The notes under the pieces are model-generated. The model was given only the letters and a program-made list of their open reading frames with translations. It was not told where the DNA came from and searched no databases. 28,643 nt of DNA, from the IMG/VR virus record IMGVR_UViG_3300006752_000148, positions 1 to 28,643 of that record; one strand, written 5' to 3'. This DNA is from a virus. A program made the translations under genes and the position numbers. This document shows, piece after piece, positions 6,761-23,998 of this stretch (positions are counted from its first letter, which is position 1; the number at the start of each line of letters is the position of its first letter).

Positions 6761-9385
6761 ATGAGTGATATTTTTTATACGAACGTCACACGACTGTTCA
6801 ATGATATAGCTGTACGTGGAATCAAGAACGGTAAACCCTTCTCCCGTAAGGTTAAGTATGAGCCAACTCTCTATGTGAAGTCTGAGAAGCCATCAGGTCT
6901 TGTCACACTTGAAGGTGAGCATGTGGCTCCTGTACAGCCTGGTACTATGAAGGACTGTAGACTGTTTATCGACAAATATGATGGCATCGAGAACTTCAAA
7001 GTGTATGGACAGACTAACTATGTCAAGCAGTTTACTAATGCTGCGTTCCCAGGTATCATAGAGTTCGATCGTTCAAAGATTAATGTAACATCTATCGATA
7101 TCGAGGTGCAGTCTGATGAAGGGTTCCCTGACCCTGCTTACGCCGCATATCCTATTACAGCTATAACGATCCACAATAACATTGACGACATATACTATGT
7201 GTGGGGCTGTGGCGAATGGGAATCTGATAAGCGTGACCCTTCACTTGAGGGCGTACATATTCGATACACACAATGTGCTGACGAGGCTGACCTGCTACAT
7301 CGATTCGTCGACCAATGGAAGAAAGCCTATCCTGATATCATTACTGGCTGGAACAGTGAGTTGTTTGATATGCAGTACATTGCAAACAGACTACCTCGTG
7401 TAACTAACATCGAGGCTCGTGAGCTTTCACCCTTCAAGATGTTTGATTGGCAGAAGCGTTTCATTGCTGGTAAAGAGGTAAACTTCCCATACTTCTTTGG
7501 TATTAGCTGTCTGGACTATCTCGAGCTGTTTCGTAAGTTTGGTTATGCATATGGCTCGCAAGAATCCTATCGATTGGATCACATCGCACATGTAGTGCTT
7601 GGCGAGCGTAAGTTGGACTATAGTGAATACGGTGACTTGAACTCACTGTACAAGTTTGACTACCAAAAGTTTATTGACTACAACATTAAAGATACTCAGC
7701 TTGTTGACCGTATGGAAGACAAGCTAGGTCTAATCACTCTTGCTTGTACGATTGCGTATAAAGGTAAGGTTAACTACAAAGACGCCTTTGGTACTGTGGG
7801 TGTATGGGATGCTATCCTGCACAATTATATGATGGACCAAGGTATCGTTGTTAACCCTACTGGCAAGGGTGATAAGGAAGGTAAGATTGAAGGAGCTCAC
7901 GTTAAAGATCCGCATACAGGTATGCACGATTGGGTTGTGTCCTTTGACTTGAACTCTCTGTATCCTCATATCATGATGCAGTATAACATGAGTCCTGAAA
8001 CACTTGTTCCTGTCACTGTTCCTAATGTCTCAGTAGATAAGTTGTTGAAGCAAGAACGGTTTGACTTCGATAAGCAATACTGTATGACTGCTCGTGGTAA
8101 CCTGTTCCGTAAAGATAAGAAGGGTATGATTCCTACTCTTGTTGAAGGTTTGTATTCGGAACGTAAAGGCTATAAGAAAGAAATGCTTGCAGCTCAACAA
8201 GAGCTTGTCGATATGGGTCAGGAGAGTGACTATATCAACATGGTAATCGACCGTATGAAGACGCTTGAGAGCAACGAGAGTGTTGGTCAGACACGAGGCA
8301 ATACTTCATTTGTTAATGACGCTAAGGCCGAGTACGTTAGAGCTAAGTATGATGTTGAGAAGAAGATTGCTACACTAGACAACAAACAGCAAGCGATTAA
8401 GATTCTTATGAACTCCTTGTATGGCGCCACATCTAACGAGCACTTTAGATACTTTGACGTTCGCATTGCTGAGTCGATTACATTGTCAGGTCAGCTAACG
8501 ATCCGATGGGCTGAGAATCGCATTAACAAGTACCTCAATGAGATACTAAAGACTAATGAAGACTACGTGATTGCGATTGATACAGACTCTTTGTATGTAA
8601 ACATGGGTCCTCTTGTTGAGAAAGTTAAACCTAAAGACCCTGTAGTATTCTTGGATAAAGTTTCTAAGGAGAAGATCCAACCCCTATTCGAAACTGCATA
8701 TGACGAACTAAAGGAATACATGAATGCTCCTGAGCAGAAGATGGTTATGGAGCGTGAGGTGATTGCTGAACGAGGTGTGTGGACAGGTAAGAAACACTAT
8801 GCATTGAATGTATGGAATAGTGAGGGTGTACAGTATCCTGAGCCTAAACTCAAGGTTCAAGGTATTGAAGTTGTTCGCTCATCAACACCACAAGTCTGTC
8901 GAGACCTACTAAAGAGTACGATTAATGAGATTCTAACTACAGATGAGAGTACGGTTCAAGCTACGATTGCACGCGTCAGAGAAGAGTTTAACCAGCTTCC
9001 TGCAGAAGATATCGCTTTCCCAAGAACAGCCAATAACATTGATAAATATAGTGAAGGTAATGTAATCTATAAGAAGGGTACGCCAATTCATATTCGCGGA
9101 TCGTTGTTACATAACTACCATCTGGAACGTATGAATCTTACAAAGAAGTATGAACCTGTATATCCTGGTGAGAAGATTAAGTTTGTTTATGTTAGACAGC
9201 CTAACCCTCTTGCCGAGAACGTAATCGCTTTCAAAGGTATATTGCCTGATGAGTTTAACGTAAGAAAATATATTGATTATGACTTACAGTTTAGTAAGGC
9301 GTTTGTAGAACCTATCAAGAACATTCTTGATTCGATAGGGTGGAAACCTGAGAAGATAGCAACATTGGAGGACTTCTGGTCATGA
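6761..9385 (+). CDS. 43: family B DNA polymerase, gp43-like
   Basis: An 874-residue replicative polymerase (T4 gp43 is 898). The exonuclease motifs are SIDIEVQ (D and E at about 112/114, as in T4), GWNSELFDMQYI and YNIKDTQLVDRM. Polymerase motif A is SFDLNSLYPHIMMQYN near residue 395, motif B is QAIKILMNSLYGATSN, motif C is AIDTDSLYVNMG near 607, and KKHYAL corresponds to the KKRY element. All catalytic acids are present, so both synthesis and proofreading should work. The frame is uninterrupted: no intron, homing gene or split as seen in some relatives. There is no recognisable ribosome site upstream, and a promoter at 6726-6754 would give a leaderless mRNA. Its stop overlaps the next gene (ATGA). 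Confidence 0.97.
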   Translation: MSDIFYTNVTRLFNDIAVRGIKNGKPFSRKVKYEPTLYVKSEKPSGLVTLEGEHVAPVQPGTMKDCRLFIDKYDGIENFKVYGQTNYVKQFTNAAFPGIIEFDRSKINVTSIDIEVQSDEGFPDPAYAAYPITAITIHNNIDDIYYVWGCGEWESDKRDPSLEGVHIRYTQCADEADLLHRFVDQWKKAYPDIITGWNSELFDMQYIANRLPRVTNIEARELSPFKMFDWQKRFIAGKEVNFPYFFGISCLDYLELFRKFGYAYGSQESYRLDHIAHVVLGERKLDYSEYGDLNSLYKFDYQKFIDYNIKDTQLVDRMEDKLGLITLACTIAYKGKVNYKDAFGTVGVWDAILHNYMMDQGIVVNPTGKGDKEGKIEGAHVKDPHTGMHDWVVSFDLNSLYPHIMMQYNMSPETLVPVTVPNVSVDKLLKQERFDFDKQYCMTARGNLFRKDKKGMIPTLVEGLYSERKGYKKEMLAAQQELVDMGQESDYINMVIDRMKTLESNESVGQTRGNTSFVNDAKAEYVRAKYDVEKKIATLDNKQQAIKILMNSLYGATSNEHFRYFDVRIAESITLSGQLTIRWAENRINKYLNEILKTNEDYVIAIDTDSLYVNMGPLVEKVKPKDPVVFLDKVSKEKIQPLFETAYDELKEYMNAPEQKMVMEREVIAERGVWTGKKHYALNVWNSEGVQYPEPKLKVQGIEVVRSSTPQVCRDLLKSTINEILTTDESTVQATIARVREEFNQLPAEDIAFPRTANNIDKYSEGNVIYKKGTPIHIRGSLLHNYHLERMNLTKKYEPVYPGEKIKFVYVRQPNPLAENVIAFKGILPDEFNVRKYIDYDLQFSKAFVEPIKNILDSIGWKPEKIATLEDFWS

Positions 9386-13361: not shown

Positions 13362-13524
13362 TTATGAAGTAAGACGTCACGGAAAGAAGTGGAAAGTGTT
13401 TGAACTCTCCACTAACCAATATGTATTCTCAGCTAATAATAAATGGAAAGCCATTCAGGTTGAGAAGAACTTACAAAGTGGTGGGGGCTTTAATGGACAC
13501 ACACCAACATTCTTTAAAGTCTAA
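13354..13524 (+). CDS. small hypothetical protein (56 aa)
   Basis: A 56-residue protein starting 8 bases after AGGAG, at the gp41 stop. It begins MSNYEVRRHGKKWKVFELST, with YVFSANNKWKAIQVEKNL after it: alternating aromatic/basic strands as in small DNA- or substrate-binding beta folds (possibly AP2/integrase-arm-like, not proven). The longer frame from 13240 runs through gp41 and was rejected. The start of the sulfotransferase gene overlaps its last 32 bases. Confidence 0.65.
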   Translation: MSNYEVRRHGKKWKVFELSTNQYVFSANNKWKAIQVEKNLQSGGGFNGHTPTFFKV

Positions 13525-14140
13525 ACCTACTTTAATATTAGGTATAGGACCTGCTAGGACAGGAACATCATACCTTTTCAGCTTGTTCTTGAATGACAAT
13601 TTTAATGTCACTCATATGAAGGAGGATATGTATCTATATAATAACTCCGTCATTAATATATACGAATACAAAAAATGTTTTGGAACTACTGATAAAAATA
13701 TCTATGTTGATGTTAATCCTAGATATTCGTTTATGCCAAATTTGGATGAAGTGATAGCTCAGCTTAACTATCATTTTGATGTCCGATTAATTTGTACAGT
13801 TAGAGATCCGGTCAATTCTGTTATATCAGGTATAGAAGCGGCAGGTATGAGTTATGGTATATATCAAGAACATTATGACTTTAAATTTTTGATTGAGAGA
13901 ATGAAACACCATCCACTTTATGTGAAGTTTCTTGAACATCACGACTTTGAAAGTTTGTCTAAGTTTGTTGGCGCAGATGTAGAAACTCATACAAGAGTAG
14001 TAAATGTCAATCAAAGAGTTTCAAATGTTAAATGTACAGAGTCGATAGAAACAATTAGAAAAAAAATGAACAAACAATATGAGTATTTTTTCCGGAAAAA
14101 TGGAGAAGTTTTTATCAAAACAATATGGGAACATGCATAA
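13493..14140 (+). CDS. sulfotransferase-like protein
   Basis: A 215-residue P-loop protein. The N-terminus TLILGIGPARTGTSYLFSLF carries the 5'-phosphosulfate loop (G-x-x-R-T-G-T-S), and RLICTVRDPVNSVIS fits the 3'-phosphate-binding VRDPxxxxxS motif of PAPS-dependent sulfotransferases. It would move sulfate to a sugar or other acceptor; the acceptor is unknown. The gene is visibly richer in A+T and in AAA/ATA/TTT codons than the replication genes beside it, which suggests recent acquisition. I chose the ATG at 13493 just before the P-loop strand, with GGTGGGGG upstream. Its stop codon lies inside a late-promoter-like CATAAATA. Confidence 0.8.
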   Translation: MDTHQHSLKSKPTLILGIGPARTGTSYLFSLFLNDNFNVTHMKEDMYLYNNSVINIYEYKKCFGTTDKNIYVDVNPRYSFMPNLDEVIAQLNYHFDVRLICTVRDPVNSVISGIEAAGMSYGIYQEHYDFKFLIERMKHHPLYVKFLEHHDFESLSKFVGADVETHTRVVNVNQRVSNVKCTESIETIRKKMNKQYEYFFRKNGEVFIKTIWEHA

Positions 14141-16470: not shown

Positions 16471-16507
16471 GATATAGTCAAGAGAGAGAGGAAATTTGAT
16501 TATGATT
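16468..16507 (+). repeat. duplicated leader, copy 2
   Basis: Second copy of the leader at 14825-14862, with AGAGAGAGAGG in place of AGAGAGAGG. It includes the ribosome site and first two codons (ATGATT) of the gene at 16502. Confidence 0.8.
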
Positions 16508-17143
16508 GATTACGGTAAAGTTTATGAAGAAGTAGATTTCTTTTTGCAGTCTCGTGAAGGTCTGTGTAACCCTAAGAAGAAAGAAACCTATGCTATTTTC
16601 GTTAAAGAGTTGGCTGGCATCTTAGCTGGTGCTGCTTATGAAAATAATTTGACTACAGAAGATGTATGTCGTTTCCTTAATCTAGCTTATTACCACACGA
16701 TCGATGATTTGGACACAAGTGGTAAGCTAACAGAGGTAGCTGATCTTATTAGCACTGAGCTTTTGACGCATCCTTTATATGAGATCGTTGAGCATACATT
16801 AATGAAGTATATTCCTGCAAGTGTTCAAGCTGGTCCTGGTGAATTCTTCTTCTGCTTCTTTGACAGCAACTCAACATTTGGTATTGACAACCAGGCTGGA
16901 TATGATATTATCACAGACAATGTGAAGACCGAATTGAAGACTCTTGGTTCTAACTTTACAACACCTGAGCTGTTTGATCAGTATGCAGAAAGTGATGATG
17001 TTGACCGCTTGCTGGTTGTCCATCCTGTATCGAATGCTGCTAAGCCTCGTCAGCGTAGTCAGTATGCATGCGTACGTACTGAGAAGTGGAGAGAAGCATT
17101 TACTCATACTGGTAAGAATGGTTCGCTGGTTCTGGTTGCATAA
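16502..17143 (+). CDS. possible PD-(D/E)xK nuclease-fold protein
   Basis: A 213-residue protein. The N-terminal half is helical. The second half holds GPGEFFFCFFDSN, then GIDNQAGYDIITDNVKTELK, where a D (in GYDII) is followed by E-L-K, the order of the PD-(D/E)xK nuclease core with an upstream Glu. Later come RLLVVHP and a Q/R-rich stretch (KPRQRSQYACVRTEKW). The Pro of the motif is missing, so the call is tentative. It has its own early-type promoter and the duplicated leader. The next gene also has a PD-(D/E)xK pattern, which strengthens the idea of paired nuclease-like proteins. The ATG at 16502 is preferred to a TTG at 16496. Confidence 0.5.
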   Translation: MIDYGKVYEEVDFFLQSREGLCNPKKKETYAIFVKELAGILAGAAYENNLTTEDVCRFLNLAYYHTIDDLDTSGKLTEVADLISTELLTHPLYEIVEHTLMKYIPASVQAGPGEFFFCFFDSNSTFGIDNQAGYDIITDNVKTELKTLGSNFTTPELFDQYAESDDVDRLLVVHPVSNAAKPRQRSQYACVRTEKWREAFTHTGKNGSLVLVA

Positions 17144-17167: not shown

Positions 17168-17983
17168 ATGAGTAGTGCTAAAGCGTTTGCTGATGAGAAT
17201 GCAGCATTTGATAAACTTAAAAATTACCTTAATCGTAAGGCTGATGTCTTTCAAGCTCCGGCTGGAGCAGACGCTGGGTTTCCGGATTATGGATTTACAG
17301 TTTACTTAGATGACAATTCTACTGTGGATCTTCATATCGAGTATAAAAACTCACATACAGCACAGATGGGTAGTATGAGAGATTGGCACTTTGATGGCAG
17401 ACAATTTAGTACACCAGACTCTAATAGTGAACAGAAGGATGAGTTAATATCATTAATGAACAATACTCCTGTTGCTATTAGGAATGGTAAACGACTATTG
17501 AAGGACCTTAAAACATTCTTCTCTGCAGATGTTAAGTCTATCTACTCAGGTTCTCTGACCGTAATTAAAGACAAGCTGCAGCGATATAATTCTTTGATGC
17601 AGTTTGTGGAAAATACTAGAGACTATCAGATAGCTAACATTGCTGATTCGCAACTTGGTAATAAGATTATAACACATTACAAAAACAAGTTTAAGAAGAG
17701 TAGAGTTACAGGTAGAGCATCAGGTCACATTCTATTGATGCAAATTAAAGATGAGATGTGGTATCTCGATACATATGGAACTGTTACTCCAGCTATATTA
17801 GAAGAAGTATCGAAGAAGATTGGTGCAAATAAGACAATACAAAGGATGACAGGTTTGACTGCTCAATTAGAAGTTAGAATCCAACCGAGGGGGACTACAT
17901 CTAAAGGAGCAAAACCTGTATCGATAGACGTGATGGCTAGCTACCGACTTAAAGGTAAGCCAGCAGGAGGAGCATCATTATGA
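17168..17983 (+). CDS. PD-(D/E)xK nuclease-like protein
   Basis: A 271-residue protein with a clear PD-(D/E)xK core near the N-terminus: an E-containing helix (DENAAFDKLKNYL), then AGFPDYGFTVYLDD, and VDLHIEYKNSHTAQMG, giving P-D followed about 18 residues later by E-Y-K. The middle is helical and basic, and the last third has strands LMQIKDEMWYLDTYG and LEVRIQPRG. Such folds cut DNA in repair, resolution and restriction. It follows a late-type promoter and is coupled (ATGA) to a ligase-like protein, so its product may act in late DNA metabolism or packaging. The substrate is unknown. Confidence 0.65.
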   Translation: MSSAKAFADENAAFDKLKNYLNRKADVFQAPAGADAGFPDYGFTVYLDDNSTVDLHIEYKNSHTAQMGSMRDWHFDGRQFSTPDSNSEQKDELISLMNNTPVAIRNGKRLLKDLKTFFSADVKSIYSGSLTVIKDKLQRYNSLMQFVENTRDYQIANIADSQLGNKIITHYKNKFKKSRVTGRASGHILLMQIKDEMWYLDTYGTVTPAILEEVSKKIGANKTIQRMTGLTAQLEVRIQPRGTTSKGAKPVSIDVMASYRLKGKPAGGASL

Positions 17984-19194
17984 GTTTCAAACAATTATTA
18001 AACGAGAACAAAAATACACATATGGAGCACATTGAAGATCTGATCTTCAATGAGGGTGTTGATGGTACACGCAAAGCTATCAACTTCCTTCGGGACATTC
18101 GAGATATGCTTGCTGGCTCTTCTGGCCGTAAGCTATCTATGACTGTTAAGTGGGATGGAGCCCCTGCTGTATTTGCTGGTGTGGACCCTAGAGATGGTAA
18201 GTTCTTTGTCGCCAAGAAAGGCATCTTTAATAAAGAGCCTAAGGTATACAAGACACAAGCCGAAGTCCGTGCAGATACTTCTGGTGACTTAGCTGATAAG
18301 CTAAGCATTGCTTTGAAGTTACTCCCAGCATTAGGAATTAAAGGTGTCATTCAGGGTGACTTTATGTTTGGCCCCGGTGATGTTAAAACCGAAGATATCG
18401 ATGGTAAGAGTTATCTGACCTTCCATCCTAATACTATTTTGTATGCTGTCGAAACAGGTACACCGTTGGCTAAACAAATAAAGCAATCTCAGATTGGTAT
18501 TGTTTGGCACACAGTATATACTGGTGATTCGTTTGAGACTATGAAGGCCTCATTTGGTAAAGATATAACTAAGAATCTAAGACAGACATCAAAGGTATGG
18601 ATGGACGATGCAACTTACAAAGACTATTCTGGAACGGCTACTCTCACTGCTAGAGAAACTGCTCAGCTTACTAAACAGCTTAGTAGAATTGGCAAGCTAT
18701 TTAACAAAGTTAAATCGCCAGTCCTTAATGAGATCAGTAGGGACAATCAGTTTCTGATTCGTATGAAAGCATTTAACAATGCTTCTATCAGAGGACGAGG
18801 TATCAACTTTAATAATGTCAATAAGGACCTAGAGAAATACTTCGCTGATTTTATTCAGAAAGAAATTGATAAGGTCAAAACACCTGCAGCCAAGCAGAAG
18901 AAAGAACAAACCATGGGTAAGTGGTTAAAGTTTCTTCAGAAGAATCGTCAGCAGATACGGATCATCTACCAGCTGATGGGTATGCTTACAGATGCTAAGC
19001 TGACAGTAATTGACAAACTTAACCGTACAAGTCGTATCAACACATTCTTACGTACGGCATATGGTTTTAAAGTGACCAATCAAGAAGGATTTGTTGCTAT
19101 CGATCGACTCAAAGGAGGAGCTGTCAAGATTGTTGACAGGATGGAGTTTAGTAAAGCTAACTTCAGTCCTGACATTATCAAAGGTTGGCAGTAA
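17980..19194 (+). CDS. ligase-like nucleotidyltransferase with capsid-targeting-like N-terminus
   Basis: A 404-residue protein with motifs of covalent nucleotidyltransferases (DNA/RNA ligases): TVKWDGAPAV (K57-x-D-G, motif I), VAKKG (motif Ia-like, 77-81), VIQGDFMFGPG (motif III, compare GEFAGPG of T4 RNA ligase 2) and, near the C-terminus, EGFV (369-372, motif IV) and AVKIVDRMEFSK (motif V). An insertion of roughly 180 mostly helical residues separates III from IV, and there is no room for an OB domain. The first residues MSFKQLLNEN resemble the T4 capsid-targeting sequence (MKTYQEFIAE type) cut by the gp21 protease. I think related marine-phage proteins carry only a DUF label. AGGAGG lies 9 bases before the ATG. 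Confidence 0.6.
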   Translation: MSFKQLLNENKNTHMEHIEDLIFNEGVDGTRKAINFLRDIRDMLAGSSGRKLSMTVKWDGAPAVFAGVDPRDGKFFVAKKGIFNKEPKVYKTQAEVRADTSGDLADKLSIALKLLPALGIKGVIQGDFMFGPGDVKTEDIDGKSYLTFHPNTILYAVETGTPLAKQIKQSQIGIVWHTVYTGDSFETMKASFGKDITKNLRQTSKVWMDDATYKDYSGTATLTARETAQLTKQLSRIGKLFNKVKSPVLNEISRDNQFLIRMKAFNNASIRGRGINFNNVNKDLEKYFADFIQKEIDKVKTPAAKQKKEQTMGKWLKFLQKNRQQIRIIYQLMGMLTDAKLTVIDKLNRTSRINTFLRTAYGFKVTNQEGFVAIDRLKGGAVKIVDRMEFSKANFSPDIIKGWQ

Positions 19195-19916
19195 TGCTTC
19201 AATTTGCTATCCTGGGACTACACAGGTCTGGCACAAACTATCTAGCAAGAACCATGGACCTTAACTTCCGTAAATCTACGAAGTTAAAGTTTGTCACTGG
19301 TAACGGTGCTCCTCATGATGATGGCAGCCGTAATGTGACACCTGATGAGAACAAAGACATCTCTAAGCATTTGTATGGTATGGAGTCTCATGATATTCCT
19401 GTATACAATTATGTGCTAATACATAAATCACCTTATCAATGGATTGATAGTGTCAGATCTAACCCATTAGACTTTGGATCGTTCTATCCAAAAGCAGCTG
19501 CATTTGATATAGTAGAGATGTGCAAAATCTATAATGAATTCCATATGTATTGGAATAACATGAGTCGTTTTAGGAATGTTCGGATCGTGAAATACGAAGA
19601 GCTGTTAACAAACACTGCAGAACTGCTAGACGGTATTAAGAATCACTGGAGCTTGGATCAGAAGTTTGAGAGCTATAATATGCCTACGAATGTACATAAC
19701 TCTGCTAAGCACTTTGACCAAGAGCACTGGGACAGACAATTTTACACTGAACTGCATTGGGATGATATTGAGATAGTCAATGAAAGCATAAATAAGAGTA
19801 TAATGCGGACACTTCGATACGATTATATCGAAGACCCATCGGATAGGCGATACAAGAGGAAACATGGCATTCCAGTTGAGCGACAATCTACATCCCAGCT
19901 CTCCTTTGATTTCTAA
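19194..19916 (+). CDS. second sulfotransferase-like protein
   Basis: A 240-residue P-loop protein. The N-terminal FAILGLHRSGTNYLARTMD has the 5'-phosphosulfate loop (R-S-G-T-N), LIHKSPYQWIDSVRSN matches the K-x-P-x-x-W-x-x-S 3'-phosphate motif, and RIVKYEELL fits the conserved strand-E-E-L seen in sulfotransferases. It differs in length and sequence from the one at 13493, so the two are not a recent duplication. It starts by TAATG overlap with the ligase-like gene, inside the late operon; the acceptor might be a virion glycan or surface sugar (inference). Confidence 0.75.
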   Translation: MLQFAILGLHRSGTNYLARTMDLNFRKSTKLKFVTGNGAPHDDGSRNVTPDENKDISKHLYGMESHDIPVYNYVLIHKSPYQWIDSVRSNPLDFGSFYPKAAAFDIVEMCKIYNEFHMYWNNMSRFRNVRIVKYEELLTNTAELLDGIKNHWSLDQKFESYNMPTNVHNSAKHFDQEHWDRQFYTELHWDDIEIVNESINKSIMRTLRYDYIEDPSDRRYKRKHGIPVERQSTSQLSFDF

Positions 19917-20543: not shown

Positions 20544-22598
20544 GTGAGCACTGCAGTATTTACATTTGGACGTATGAATCCCCCTACAATTGGCCATCAG
20601 AAGCTAGTTGATAAGGTATCTTCAGTAGCAAAGACAGCTAAAGCTAAAGACTACGTTTTCCTTTCCCAGACACAAAACAATAAAAAAGACCCTCTGAATT
20701 ACGATCAGAAGATTGCCTATGCCAAGAAAGCATTTGGAAAGTCTGTGACTAAGTCTCGCTCTAAGACTATTATACAAGTCATGCAAGAGCTTGAGAAGAA
20801 GGGGCATACCCACATTATTATGGTAGTTGGTTCGGATCGTGTAACCGATTTTGATTCACTGCTAAAGAAGTATAACGGCAAAGACTATAAGTTTTCATCC
20901 ATTCAAGTTGTATCAGCAGGCGAACGGGATCCGGACGCCGAAGGTGCATCAGGTATGTCTGCATCTAAAATGAGAGCTGCAGCCCAGTCTGGTGATGAGA
21001 GCAAATTCAAAAAAGGACTGCCTCCTAAGCTGCGGTCCTCGGCAAGTAAGATATTTAATGACGTGAGGTCTATCATGGAAGACGAACATATCCCAGATGA
21101 TGAACTAGAAATCATTGAGCATTGGGAAGTCCCTGATGAAATGCTCTATGACGAAGAACAACTCGACGAGAACCGTAAACCACTGACGATTCAACAAAGA
21201 CGTAAAATTGGTCTGCGTATGAGACGTCTTGCACCTAGAATGCAACGTCTAAAGAAGATGAAGGCTAAGCGAATGGCGCCAGCCGAACGTCTGAAAATGA
21301 GAGCTAGAAAAGCCGCTATCAATGTACTTCGTAAGCGCGCCGCTGGTAAAACAGGTGCAAACTATTCAACTTTATCAGTATCTCAGAAGATAGCTGTGGA
21401 TAAAATGATTATGAAGAAACGTCCAGCTATTGCAAATATTGCTAAGCGTTTGTTCCCTGGTGTACGTAAGAAAGAGATGGCTAGACTGCAACAACTAAGA
21501 AAAGGTCCTAAAAACGAAGAAAATGTGGTAGAAGCTACCCAAACTACACAGGACAAAGACATAAGTAAGCGCGGCGGCACTCAACCTGCAAAATATCACA
21601 AAGGCCTTTCGAAAGATACAAAGGCAAAGCGCGACGCTCAGTTCAAAAAGCAGGCTGCCATGTCAGATGATAATCCCAATGCCTATAAACCGGCTCCTGG
21701 AGATGCATCTGCTACAACTAAACAATCCAAATATACTAAAGCATATAAAGACATGTACGGTGAGAACGTCACCCGTGCTGATGTTAAGGCTATCAACGTT
21801 AAAGAACCTGACGGCAAGATTGTTATCCGTAAGACTAAGAAAGATGTGCAAGTAGAAGGTGAAAGCCTAGCTAAAGCAAAAGCTGCAATTAAACGTGAGA
21901 AGGATGCTGATAAAGAAAAGCATGATAGAATGCGTGATGCAGCTAGAACAGCAGACACACGATCCAAGAATCGCCAGACTGAGGAGGTCCATGAAATGGC
22001 TAAACGAGGAAGACCAAAGAAGACTGGTGAAACCGGTATTGAAAACATTCAGATGCAGCTTCGTAAGGTTGTAAGTCTTAATGGTCAAAAGCCAGTTGAA
22101 TTTGAAAATGGTAAGAAGATGAAGATGACCCAAAGTCAAGCTAGAACAATCGATAAGAAGATTAGTAATCTACGCATGCCTAAAGACAAACAACAATTTG
22201 TCAACTTCATCAACCAGTCACCAGAGAACATGAAGAAGGCGCTTGACCCTAAGTTTAAGAAGCCAGAACAATTCAAGTCATATCTAATGAATGCTAAGGA
22301 GTCATTAGAGAAACGACAGGAAGTGTTCGAGCAAACAGAAACACCTACTCGTAGACGTTTCCGCAACTTCTCTGAGGAGAAACTGTTGGAAAAGTCAATG
22401 GCCGGACTTCAGAAGAAAGCTGAGAAGTCAGGTATTTCCTACGGGACATTAAAGAAAGTATATGACCGCGGCGTCGCAGCTTGGCGTACAGGTCATCGTC
22501 CAGGAACTACACCTTCACAGTGGGGATATGCAAGAGTGAATGCATTCATCACTAAGAAGAAAAAAGGTGGTCTAAACCACGATAAGGACCTGGCATGA
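20544..22598 (+). CDS. multidomain HxGH-type nucleotidylyltransferase, probable head protein
   Basis: A 684-residue protein with a GTG start after TAAGGAAAA. Residues 1-175 are an adenylyl/cytidylyltransferase domain: FTFGRMNPPTIGHQKL (T-x-G-H at 15-18), MVVGSDR near 93, and GMSASKMR at 137-144, the ISSTxxR-type motif seen in NMN adenylyltransferases. Residues about 205-325 are an Arg/Lys/Met-rich helical domain, followed by a low-complexity Lys-rich linker and a C-terminal domain (SYGTLKKVYDRGVAAWRTGH, then SQWGYARVNAFI) that I know from other phage proteins (possibly DUF5824). The basic middle suits contact with DNA inside the head. The enzyme may thus be packaged; its substrate (NMN or other) is unproven. 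Confidence 0.75.
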   Translation: MSTAVFTFGRMNPPTIGHQKLVDKVSSVAKTAKAKDYVFLSQTQNNKKDPLNYDQKIAYAKKAFGKSVTKSRSKTIIQVMQELEKKGHTHIIMVVGSDRVTDFDSLLKKYNGKDYKFSSIQVVSAGERDPDAEGASGMSASKMRAAAQSGDESKFKKGLPPKLRSSASKIFNDVRSIMEDEHIPDDELEIIEHWEVPDEMLYDEEQLDENRKPLTIQQRRKIGLRMRRLAPRMQRLKKMKAKRMAPAERLKMRARKAAINVLRKRAAGKTGANYSTLSVSQKIAVDKMIMKKRPAIANIAKRLFPGVRKKEMARLQQLRKGPKNEENVVEATQTTQDKDISKRGGTQPAKYHKGLSKDTKAKRDAQFKKQAAMSDDNPNAYKPAPGDASATTKQSKYTKAYKDMYGENVTRADVKAINVKEPDGKIVIRKTKKDVQVEGESLAKAKAAIKREKDADKEKHDRMRDAARTADTRSKNRQTEEVHEMAKRGRPKKTGETGIENIQMQLRKVVSLNGQKPVEFENGKKMKMTQSQARTIDKKISNLRMPKDKQQFVNFINQSPENMKKALDPKFKKPEQFKSYLMNAKESLEKRQEVFEQTETPTRRRFRNFSEEKLLEKSMAGLQKKAEKSGISYGTLKKVYDRGVAAWRTGHRPGTTPSQWGYARVNAFITKKKKGGLNHDKDLA

Positions 22599-23998
22599 GT
22601 AAACTTACCGAAATAACTATTGGTGGAATCAAGATGAAGAAACTTGGCAAGGGTAAACCTGGTCGAATGAAATCGCTTGTGACAAAACATCTTGGTAAGT
22701 CAGCAGGTGAGAAAATTACAAAATCAGATGGAGCTAGACTAATGGCTAAAGGTAAGAAAACTGGTAACAATAAGTTGGTTCGCAAAGGTTCTTTCATTAA
22801 AAATATGATGGGAGAAGCTAAAGCTGATATGGATTCAGAAGCACAGAAGAATTACAATACACCTGCAGCTAAACACAAAGCAGAGAAGACATATCCTCGC
22901 TTTGCTGCATTGACAGATTTGGATCTTAACACTAAAAACAGAAATGAGACTATCAAAGAGTATAGTTATGGACCAGCTAATCCAGGAGATGAAGAAGGTT
23001 CAAAACTGTTCTGGGAACGTAAAGCAGATCTGTGGAATGCTCCTGTAGAACAAGTAAAATCTATGAGATGTAACAATTGTAATGCATTCAACCAGACTCC
23101 AGAAGCCAAGAAAAAAATGGCTGATGCATTAGGTCCTAAAGGTGAAACAATTGTAAAGGAATCAGAGCTAGGATATTGTGAGTTCTTTGAATTTAAATGT
23201 GCTGGTGCAAGAACTTGTGATGCATGGATCGGAGGTGGTCCAATTACTGAAGGTAAAGGACTGTATCACAATATTCATATGAAGCGTAAGCGTGGAGAGA
23301 AGATGAGAAAAACTGGTGCCAAAGGTGCTCCTAAGCCATCTGATTTTGACAGAGCTAAAACTACAGTTAGGGAGAACACTATGAAGTCGTTCCAGGAATT
23401 TATTAGCGAGAAGAAGCTGACTCCAGCTGAGTTAAAAAAGCGTGAAGAAGTAGCTCAGGCTATCAAACGAGATAACCCTGAAATGCCTATGGATAAGAAA
23501 ATGGCTATTGCTACATCTACAGCTAAACGTGTTACAGAATCTCCTAAAGCATGGGACAAGTGGAAGAAGACACCAGCTGGTAAACGATATGCTGCTCTCT
23601 CACCTGCTGAGAAAGAGGCTAAAGCGAAACTTAACCGTGAAGCATTAGCGCTTCGTGCTCTCAAAGCTAAAGGAACAGTCAAAGAAGAAGCATGCTGTGA
23701 TGATTGCAAATATGATCACGTTATCACAGAAGCTGAGCATCAAGGTAAAACGGTTAAGCTAAACGATCCGATCCGTACTAGTGAGGTTCCTTCTAAGAAG
23801 TTTAAAGTGTACGTTAAGGATGGCGACAAGATTAAAGTAGTTCGTTTTGGTGACCCAGGTCTGTCTATCAAACGAGACGATCCAAACAGACGTAAGTCAT
23901 TCCGAGCTAGACACAACTGTGATAACCCAGGTCCTAAGACAAAAGCACGCTATTGGTCGTGTTATCAGTGGCGTTCCGGGTCTAAAGTAGACAGCTAG
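22595..23998 (+). CDS. Lys-rich late protein with Cys cluster and internal capsid-targeting motif
   Basis: A 467-residue protein joined by ATGA to the gene before. Residues 1-75 are very basic (KKLGKGKPGRMKSLVTK). A central block has five Cys (RCNNCNAF at 159/162; GYCEFFEFKCAGARTCDAW at 195, 202 and 208), spaced as in small iron-sulfur or zinc proteins such as HiPIP-like folds. At residue 263 MKSFQEFISE, a near match to the T4 capsid-targeting sequence, begins a second part with a Lys/Ala-rich helix region, ACCDDC, and a basic C-terminal domain (RFGDPGLSIKRDDPNRRKS, then HNCDNPGP). It looks like two genes joined, or one gene with an internal start. Likely a head-interior protein. Confidence 0.75.
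   Translation: MSKLTEITIGGIKMKKLGKGKPGRMKSLVTKHLGKSAGEKITKSDGARLMAKGKKTGNNKLVRKGSFIKNMMGEAKADMDSEAQKNYNTPAAKHKAEKTYPRFAALTDLDLNTKNRNETIKEYSYGPANPGDEEGSKLFWERKADLWNAPVEQVKSMRCNNCNAFNQTPEAKKKMADALGPKGETIVKESELGYCEFFEFKCAGARTCDAWIGGGPITEGKGLYHNIHMKRKRGEKMRKTGAKGAPKPSDFDRAKTTVRENTMKSFQEFISEKKLTPAELKKREEVAQAIKRDNPEMPMDKKMAIATSTAKRVTESPKAWDKWKKTPAGKRYAALSPAEKEAKAKLNREALALRALKAKGTVKEEACCDDCKYDHVITEAEHQGKTVKLNDPIRTSEVPSKKFKVYVKDGDKIKVVRFGDPGLSIKRDDPNRRKSFRARHNCDNPGPKTKARYWSCYQWRSGSKVDS
23381..23998 (+). other. possible internal start: 205-residue capsid-targeted product
   Basis: In frame within the 22595 gene, ATG at 23381 follows AGGGAG by 6 bases (acagttagggagaacact). Translation from here gives a protein that begins MKSFQEFISE, the form of T4 internal-protein targeting peptides, which need to be at the N-terminus. 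A separate short product from the same gene is therefore plausible. Confidence 0.45.

Follow-up and report, generated by a model that had tools for sequence, protein, structure and literature searches.

The closest described counterparts of the gene studied here are two RNA ligases, the internal head proteins of phage T4, and an enzyme of cyanophage virions. The gene encodes a DUF6267 protein and lies on a fragment of a viral contig from a T4-like marine phage (IMG/VR record IMGVR_UViG_3300006752_000148, positions 1 to 28,643; this whole 28.6 kb stretch is called the window below). The RNA ligase of Naegleria gruberi (Rnl5 family; PDB 5cot, 6vt0-6vtg) is the best structural match to DUF6267 over the full nucleotidyltransferase domain (Z 8.6). 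Both have the motif order I-Ia-III-IIIa-IV-V, a T-V-K-x-D-G motif I, a Q-G-(D/E) motif III, and a single Lys in motif V. However, sequence homology between them is not detectable. In DUF6267, the motif III Glu is replaced by Asp and the Phe-Asp of motif IIIa by His-Thr, a helical insertion precedes motif IV, and there is no N-terminal OB domain. T4 RNA ligase 2 (Rnl2; PDB 2hvr, 2hvq, 1s68) ranks first among the structural matches to the window protein (Z 6.7), but DUF6267 is unmatched by the RNA_ligase profile, the GEFAGPG block of Rnl2 is not family-wide, and no Rnl2 C-terminal domain was recognized. The T4 proteins IPI, IPII, and IPIII share the spacing of hydrophobic residues and Glu in their N-terminal leader with the DUF6267 proteins of the window clade. 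These T4 proteins are of small size and basic character with no ligase among them, and the trimming of DUF6267 is a prediction. The NMNAT/cytidyltransferase of cyanophages (T4-GC190; S-SCSM1 ORF91) is a neighbor of DUF6267, carries the same leader, has been reported in virions, and is fused to DUF6267 in S-PM2, but it is a HIGH-superfamily enzyme of unrelated fold. Compared with these systems, DUF6267 appears with fair confidence to be a divergent, catalytically intact branch of the lysine nucleotidyltransferases nearest to the RNA ligases, which bears a leader in the window clade and is probably packaged and injected there. The elements of the gene are the following:

17980..19194, plus strand: DUF6267 gene (PF19782), 404 amino acids, predicted ligase-fold nucleotidyltransferase (AlphaFold (AF2) model with a predicted local distance difference test score (pLDDT) of 85.7; structural re-alignment topped by ligases)
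17965..17970, plus strand: Shine–Dalgarno sequence AGGAGG for the start at 17980, from the sequence
17980..18006, plus strand: MSFKQLLNE, a capsid-targeting leader of T4 type with prohead-protease cleavage predicted after E9 (T4 IPIII positions 4, 7, 8, and 10 conserved in relatives)
18148..18159, plus strand: motif I, K57-W-D59-G60 (residues 57–60), predicted nucleophile K57 (invariant in 250 proteins; blind-aligned on the Rnl5 nucleophile K170)
18211..18222, plus strand: motif Ia-like A-K-K80-G (78–81), K80 in 250 of 251 aligned sequences
18352..18363, plus strand: motif III, Q125-G-D127-F (125–128), Asp for the usual Glu (D127 invariant; blind-aligned on the Rnl5 motif III Glu)
18502..18519, plus strand: motif IIIa-like strand VWHTVY, H177 and T178 invariant in the 250-protein alignment
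18649..19029, plus strand: helical insertion (residues 224–350) between IIIa and IV (AF2 secondary structure and family alignments; shorter in 296-residue cyanophage members)
19084..19095, plus strand: motif IV, E369-G-F-V (369–372), E369 and G370 invariant
19123..19131, plus strand: motif V, V-K383-I (382–384), K383 invariant; the Naegleria Rnl family also has one Lys here (FKAIS)

The open reading frame (ORF) 17980-19194 matched the DUF6267 profile with an E-value of 4.8e-111 and 372 bits (curated cut-off 27). It belongs to phrog_455, which is filed as function unknown, as is DUF6267, and corresponds to T4-GC 71 among the cyanophage gene clusters. Because the ribosome-binding site AGGAGG lies 9 nucleotides 5′ of the ATG, MSFKQLLNEN is very probably the true N-terminus of the window protein. 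DUF6267 is present in 468 phage records (tblastn), nearly all of them from cyanophages; the others are Melnitz, HTVC008M, DLP6, C48C1, and a few Vibrio and other phages. The nearest relative of the window UvsX among phage records is that of Methylophilales phage Melnitz (62%). When genome contigs of bacteria and archaea were scanned, only 29 matches emerged, mostly on contigs of metagenome-assembled genomes that resemble binned phage, and a viral-contig search with the DUF6267 homologue of a Vibrio jumbo phage gave no match.

The motifs follow the order of the lysine nucleotidyltransferases, i.e., I (KxDG), Ia (K), III (QxD), IIIa-like (HT), IV (EG), and V (K). The first-pass annotation, made from the letters of the window, had read KWDG, AKKG, QGDF, EGFV, and VKI as motifs in ligase order, and these were confirmed at residues 57–60, 78–81, 125–128, 369–372, and 382–384. 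About 350 loci were gathered, and 250 distinct DUF6267 proteins, some near 25% identity, were aligned. K57, D59, G60, D127, E369, G370, and K383 showed no variation in this set. H14, H17, E19, Y155, H177, T178, N267, K340, R387, F390, N394, and F395 were likewise invariant. K-x-D-G, EG, and the motif V Lys were found in order in all aligned members, as was the acidic residue of motif III, though Asp127 replaces Glu. Since K57, D59, G60, D127, E369, G370, and K383 are invariant, the predicted motifs are not due to chance, and the catalytic residue set postulated earlier is well supported as intact. The likeness of the motif III block to GEFAGPG of T4 Rnl2 was only partly upheld: it is seen in the window (QGDFMFGPG), but the family keeps only Q-(G/A)-D, and the likeness is partly local to the window sequence. 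The gene is under purifying selection, with 88 synonymous versus 23 nonsynonymous differences from a 97%-identical relative (L001; pN/pS 0.07). Invariant motifs combined with purifying selection are the pattern of a predicted active enzyme, and DUF6267 is probably an active member of the ligase superfamily.

The AF2 model of the window protein was built from 39 sequences (pLDDT 85.7). After re-alignment of the Foldseek candidates, T4 Rnl2, with which a comparison had been proposed beforehand, ranked first, and ligases made up nearly all of the top 33 rows; their matches span residues 57–213 only. The large helical insertion noticed between motifs III and IV was recovered as helices at residues 224–350, and the lack of a visible OB domain agreed with the models and with Pfam. 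Much of the insertion is absent from cyanophage relatives of about 296–320 amino acids. For L217, a short relative that shares 95% identity with the P-SSM2 protein, the model had a pLDDT of 93.3 and a predicted template modeling score of 0.88. Upon re-alignment to the PDB, 50 of its 50 top entries were ligases or related lysine nucleotidyltransferases, covering residues 2–296. The best match was the Naegleria Rnl (Z 8.6, 175 residues aligned, root-mean-square deviation 3.7), followed by T4 Rnl1 (8.1), T4 Rnl2 (7.5), TbREL1 (7.3), and fungal Trl1 (7.0), with lower values for archaeal Rnl (approximately 6) and DNA ligases (5.4–5.8). The nucleotidyltransferase fold, of ligase type as first proposed, is thus well supported by predicted structures and re-alignment, and the fold similarity favors RNA ligases over DNA ligases. 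This predicted fold is supported by three points, namely that the list is uniform, that the matches span the full length, and that the motifs agree; single Z values are moderate. When each of the two family alignments was aligned blind, as a profile, with one of Rnl5 type, K57/K35 fell on the nucleophile and D127/D104 on the motif III Glu.

The T4 IPIII leader (MKTYQEFIAEA) served as a reference for the N-terminus. Its first 10 residues (MKTYQEFIAE) are enough for packaging, with positions 4 and 7 being important for targeting and 8 and 10 for processing (PMC9026906). The 28 distinct 14-residue leaders of the window clade were chosen as the nearest upstream Met, without use of the motif. All of them have L or F at position 4, F, Y, or H at 7, I, L, or V at 8, and E at 10, while positions 3, 5, 6, and 9 vary. 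The capsid-targeting pattern (hydrophobic residues at 4, 7, and 8, Glu at 10) is hence present in window-clade DUF6267; MSFKQLLNE of the window is one residue shorter than a T4-type leader with identical internal spacing. Written as a regular expression, the leader was matched at 67 of 84 aligned window-clade loci, compared with 140 of 2516 other nearby genes (5.6%); in phage C48C1, none of 675 internal Met matched. In S-SM1, the NMNAT-like cytidyltransferase T4-GC190 begins with MKKFSAFLNEA and was detected in virions (PMC3037559); the NMNAT-like ORF91 of S-SCSM1 starts with MKSFLQFLKEA and was also detected there (PMC9602691). The authors of the virion proteomics noted that such proteins might be carry-over from cesium chloride purification. 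No head genes are found in the window fragment; the relative C48C1 has an annotated head maturation protease. From the leader pattern, we infer that head packaging of DUF6267 is likely in the window clade.

In the favored reading, DUF6267 most likely uses ATP to adenylylate K57 and joins the ends of nucleic acids, an activity that we infer from the modeled fold and the motifs. K57 would attack ATP to form lysyl-AMP, with motifs III, IV, and V holding the nucleotide and metal; the AMP would be transferred to a 5′-phosphate end, and the end would then be sealed. The helical insertion and the C-terminus probably stand in for the OB domain in substrate binding. NAD+ would be less likely than ATP as a cofactor because no NAD-binding Ia domain was seen. 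A dependence on NAD+ coupled to the NMNAT-like partner was weighed as well and, with no Ia domain found, is kept as a possibility only. Given the leader in the window clade, DUF6267 would probably co-assemble with the prohead core and be trimmed by the prohead protease after the leader Glu. It would then probably enter the host together with the phage genome and, during the first minutes after infection, work on nucleic acid that is nicked or broken. Delivered in this way, it could act on nicks in incoming DNA or on cleaved tRNA before phage gene expression.

Several results weigh against this reading. Pfam, NCBIfam, PHROGs, PDB sequences (single and profile), and hhalign against the Rnl5-type alignment gave no significant ligase-family match. 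No DUF6267 member matched the RNA ligase profile PF09414 or, in Pfam, the LigA profile PF01653, and DUF6267 did not match the ATP-dependent DNA ligase profile PF01068. No N-terminal Ia NMN-binding domain was found, no OB-type region was predicted after motif V, and no ligase-type accessory domain was recognized. Foldseek alone detected no significant PDB match for the window or the L217 model, and individual Z values fall where the tool warns of common arrangements; the ligase likeness missed by Foldseek was resolved by re-alignment and by the use of a shorter relative without the long insertion. The scores of the blind alignment were marginal, as 3 and 4 of 60 column-shuffled profiles scored equally high. 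Motif III has Asp and not Glu, motif V has one Lys, and the Arg of Rnl motif Ia is replaced by Lys. Six of 18 DUF6267 phages also encode a canonical ATP-dependent DNA ligase. The leader is present in none of the 127 short DUF6267 members and lacking in many cyanophage members, and the leaderless DUF6267 of S-SCSM1 is labeled hypothetical and not as a virion protein. Because of these last two points, predicted packaging is a property of the clade and not of the whole family. The head-packaged ligase with a T4-like targeting peptide of the first-pass annotation holds to this extent: the leader is conserved at the mapped IPIII positions and leader-bearing neighbors have been reported in virions of related phages, but leaderless cyanophage members confine it to the clade. 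Since so many members lack the leader, DUF6267 is presumably functional after intracellular synthesis as well.

DUF6267 might instead possess the fold and lysine nucleotidyl transfer but not be a ligase, adenylylating or guanylylating the 5′ end of RNA (similar to capping), a protein, or a small molecule. Such a role would suit the deviating motifs III and V (Asp, single Lys), the lack of a recognized nucleic-acid-binding accessory domain, and the close linkage and S-PM2 fusion with an NMNAT-like enzyme. It would also suit the invariant H14, H17, E19, H177, N267, K340, and R387, which to our knowledge are atypical of ligases. All core motifs are intact, however, and polynucleotide ligases rather than capping enzymes top the structural ranking, so that we regard this alternative as rather unlikely. 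The second alternative concerns the leader, which could be an unrelated amphipathic N-terminus and not a capsid-targeting signal. At P1′, E, K, Q, or N is frequently found in place of Ala, and about 5.6% of the other genes near DUF6267 loci match the pattern; many of these, however, are neighbors that may be packaged themselves. Conservation restricted to positions 4, 7, 8, and 10 and the same leader on the S-SM1 and S-SCSM1 proteins reported in virions argue for a targeting signal and make a fortuitous resemblance improbable.

Thirdly, DUF6267 might act in DNA replication as the ligase that has long been missing from marine T4-like phages, with packaging secondary or absent. Cyanomyoviruses have been noted to be without a g30 ligase, and distant homologues that had escaped identification were thought possible, but substitution by the host ligase was judged more probable (PMC2984593). 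In line with such a role, 12 of 18 DUF6267 phages lack a PF01068 match, none of the 18 has a LigA match, and many relatives are leaderless and located outside the packaged cluster. However, the nearest folds are RNA ligases, not DNA ligases, and no OB domain is present. Because 6 of the 18 genomes carry a canonical ATP-dependent DNA ligase besides DUF6267, the latter is not simply a replicative ligase; replacement of g30 was rejected as the whole story, and the broader proposal is doubtful. A catalytically dead head protein, structural or scaffolding, on a degenerate ligase fold would fit the prohead-core association suggested by the leader and the lack of a known activity, but is very improbable because catalytic motif residues invariant in 250 diverse sequences are unexpected for a pseudoenzyme.

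Hundreds of marine T4-like phages with sequenced genomes encode DUF6267, to which Pfam, PHROGs, and the records examined assign no function. No paper naming it was found in a literature search, and the family is absent from the searched passages of PMC9503650, a paper about viral NAD systems. The ligase-type active site makes it a directly testable enzyme and a candidate for the DNA ligase that cyanomyoviruses have been reported to lack. If packaged, it would be an example of a nucleic-acid-sealing enzyme delivered with the phage genome, of which no report was found in the literature searched. Calibrated on published virion proteomics, the leader pattern could serve as a simple predictor of other head-packaged marine phage proteins.

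Two genes near DUF6267 in the window are considered below:

17168..17983, plus strand: upstream gene, overlapping DUF6267 by 4 nucleotides, fast-evolving, possible PD-(D/E)XK nuclease (PDYG...IEYK, a loose motif only)
20544..22598, plus strand: HIGH-superfamily nucleotidyltransferase (NMNAT-like) with C-terminal DUF5824, the usual downstream partner (PF01467, E 3e-5; PF19141, E 3e-19)

The upstream gene had no Pfam or NCBIfam match. The position directly upstream of DUF6267 is among the most variable, with 135 distinct proteins in approximately 30 unrelated groups (loci L001-L199) and no known family. A permissive PD-(D/E)XK-like signature was detected in 78 of 125 genes at this position (62%, in counts that include related sequences), versus 84 of 954 other genes (9%) and 14% of shuffled sequences. 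For both of these reasons, the nuclease is put forward only as a hypothesis, a hypervariable packaged nuclease being possible. In Melnitz, the upstream gene combines a perfect leader with a PD-(D/E)XK-like motif KTDILIGNMRFSLK, and the gene preceding NMNAT in S-SCSM1 is annotated as a virion protein. In most window-clade loci, the NMNAT-like gene lies no more than about 4 kb downstream of DUF6267, and the distance is at most 2 kb in nearly all loci of the Syn9 and S-RIM44 types; the window product also resembles NadD (TIGR00482, E 5e-5, below the cut-off). It is conceivable, but unlikely, that marine T4-like phages inject a packaged kit of the upstream PD-(D/E)XK-type nuclease, the DUF6267 ligase, and the NMNAT-like cofactor enzyme. 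Acting together before phage gene expression, these would cleave and rejoin nucleic acid of incoming, host, or competitor origin, or mend damage caused by defense systems.

In the deposited S-PM2 genome (L081 5992-7771), DUF6267 is divided between two genes, with one part in T4-GC 71 and the other at the start of T4-GC190. The split looks like a frameshift, because BFVD holds a 591-residue S-PM2 protein that represents the complete DUF6267-cytidyltransferase fusion. Two window proteins have sulfotransferase-like P-loop N-termini (13400-14140 and 19185-19916; GIGPARTGTSYL, GLHRSGTNYL), the latter gene lying directly after DUF6267 and having no Pfam, PHROGs, or NCBIfam match. The second upstream gene (16496-17143) had no family match either; a nuclease-like stretch discerned by eye (GYDIITDNVKTELK) was unmatched by the motif search.

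Leader-like sequences were also observed elsewhere. An internal Met at 23381-23410 of the window, inside ORF 22595-23998, begins a near-perfect T4 capsid-targeting leader, MKSFQEFISE. In the relative L001, ORF 7783-8409 covers only this part of the window ORF, with the leader near its start, and the region may be a separate packaged protein or a fusion product. Several small genes near DUF6267 (C48C1 L202 50001-100000; loci L001-L080) also begin with a capsid-targeting leader, which suggests a cluster of head-packaged proteins. Such a start was found within the frame of the annotated C48C1 DNA helicase (L201 19419-20918), too.
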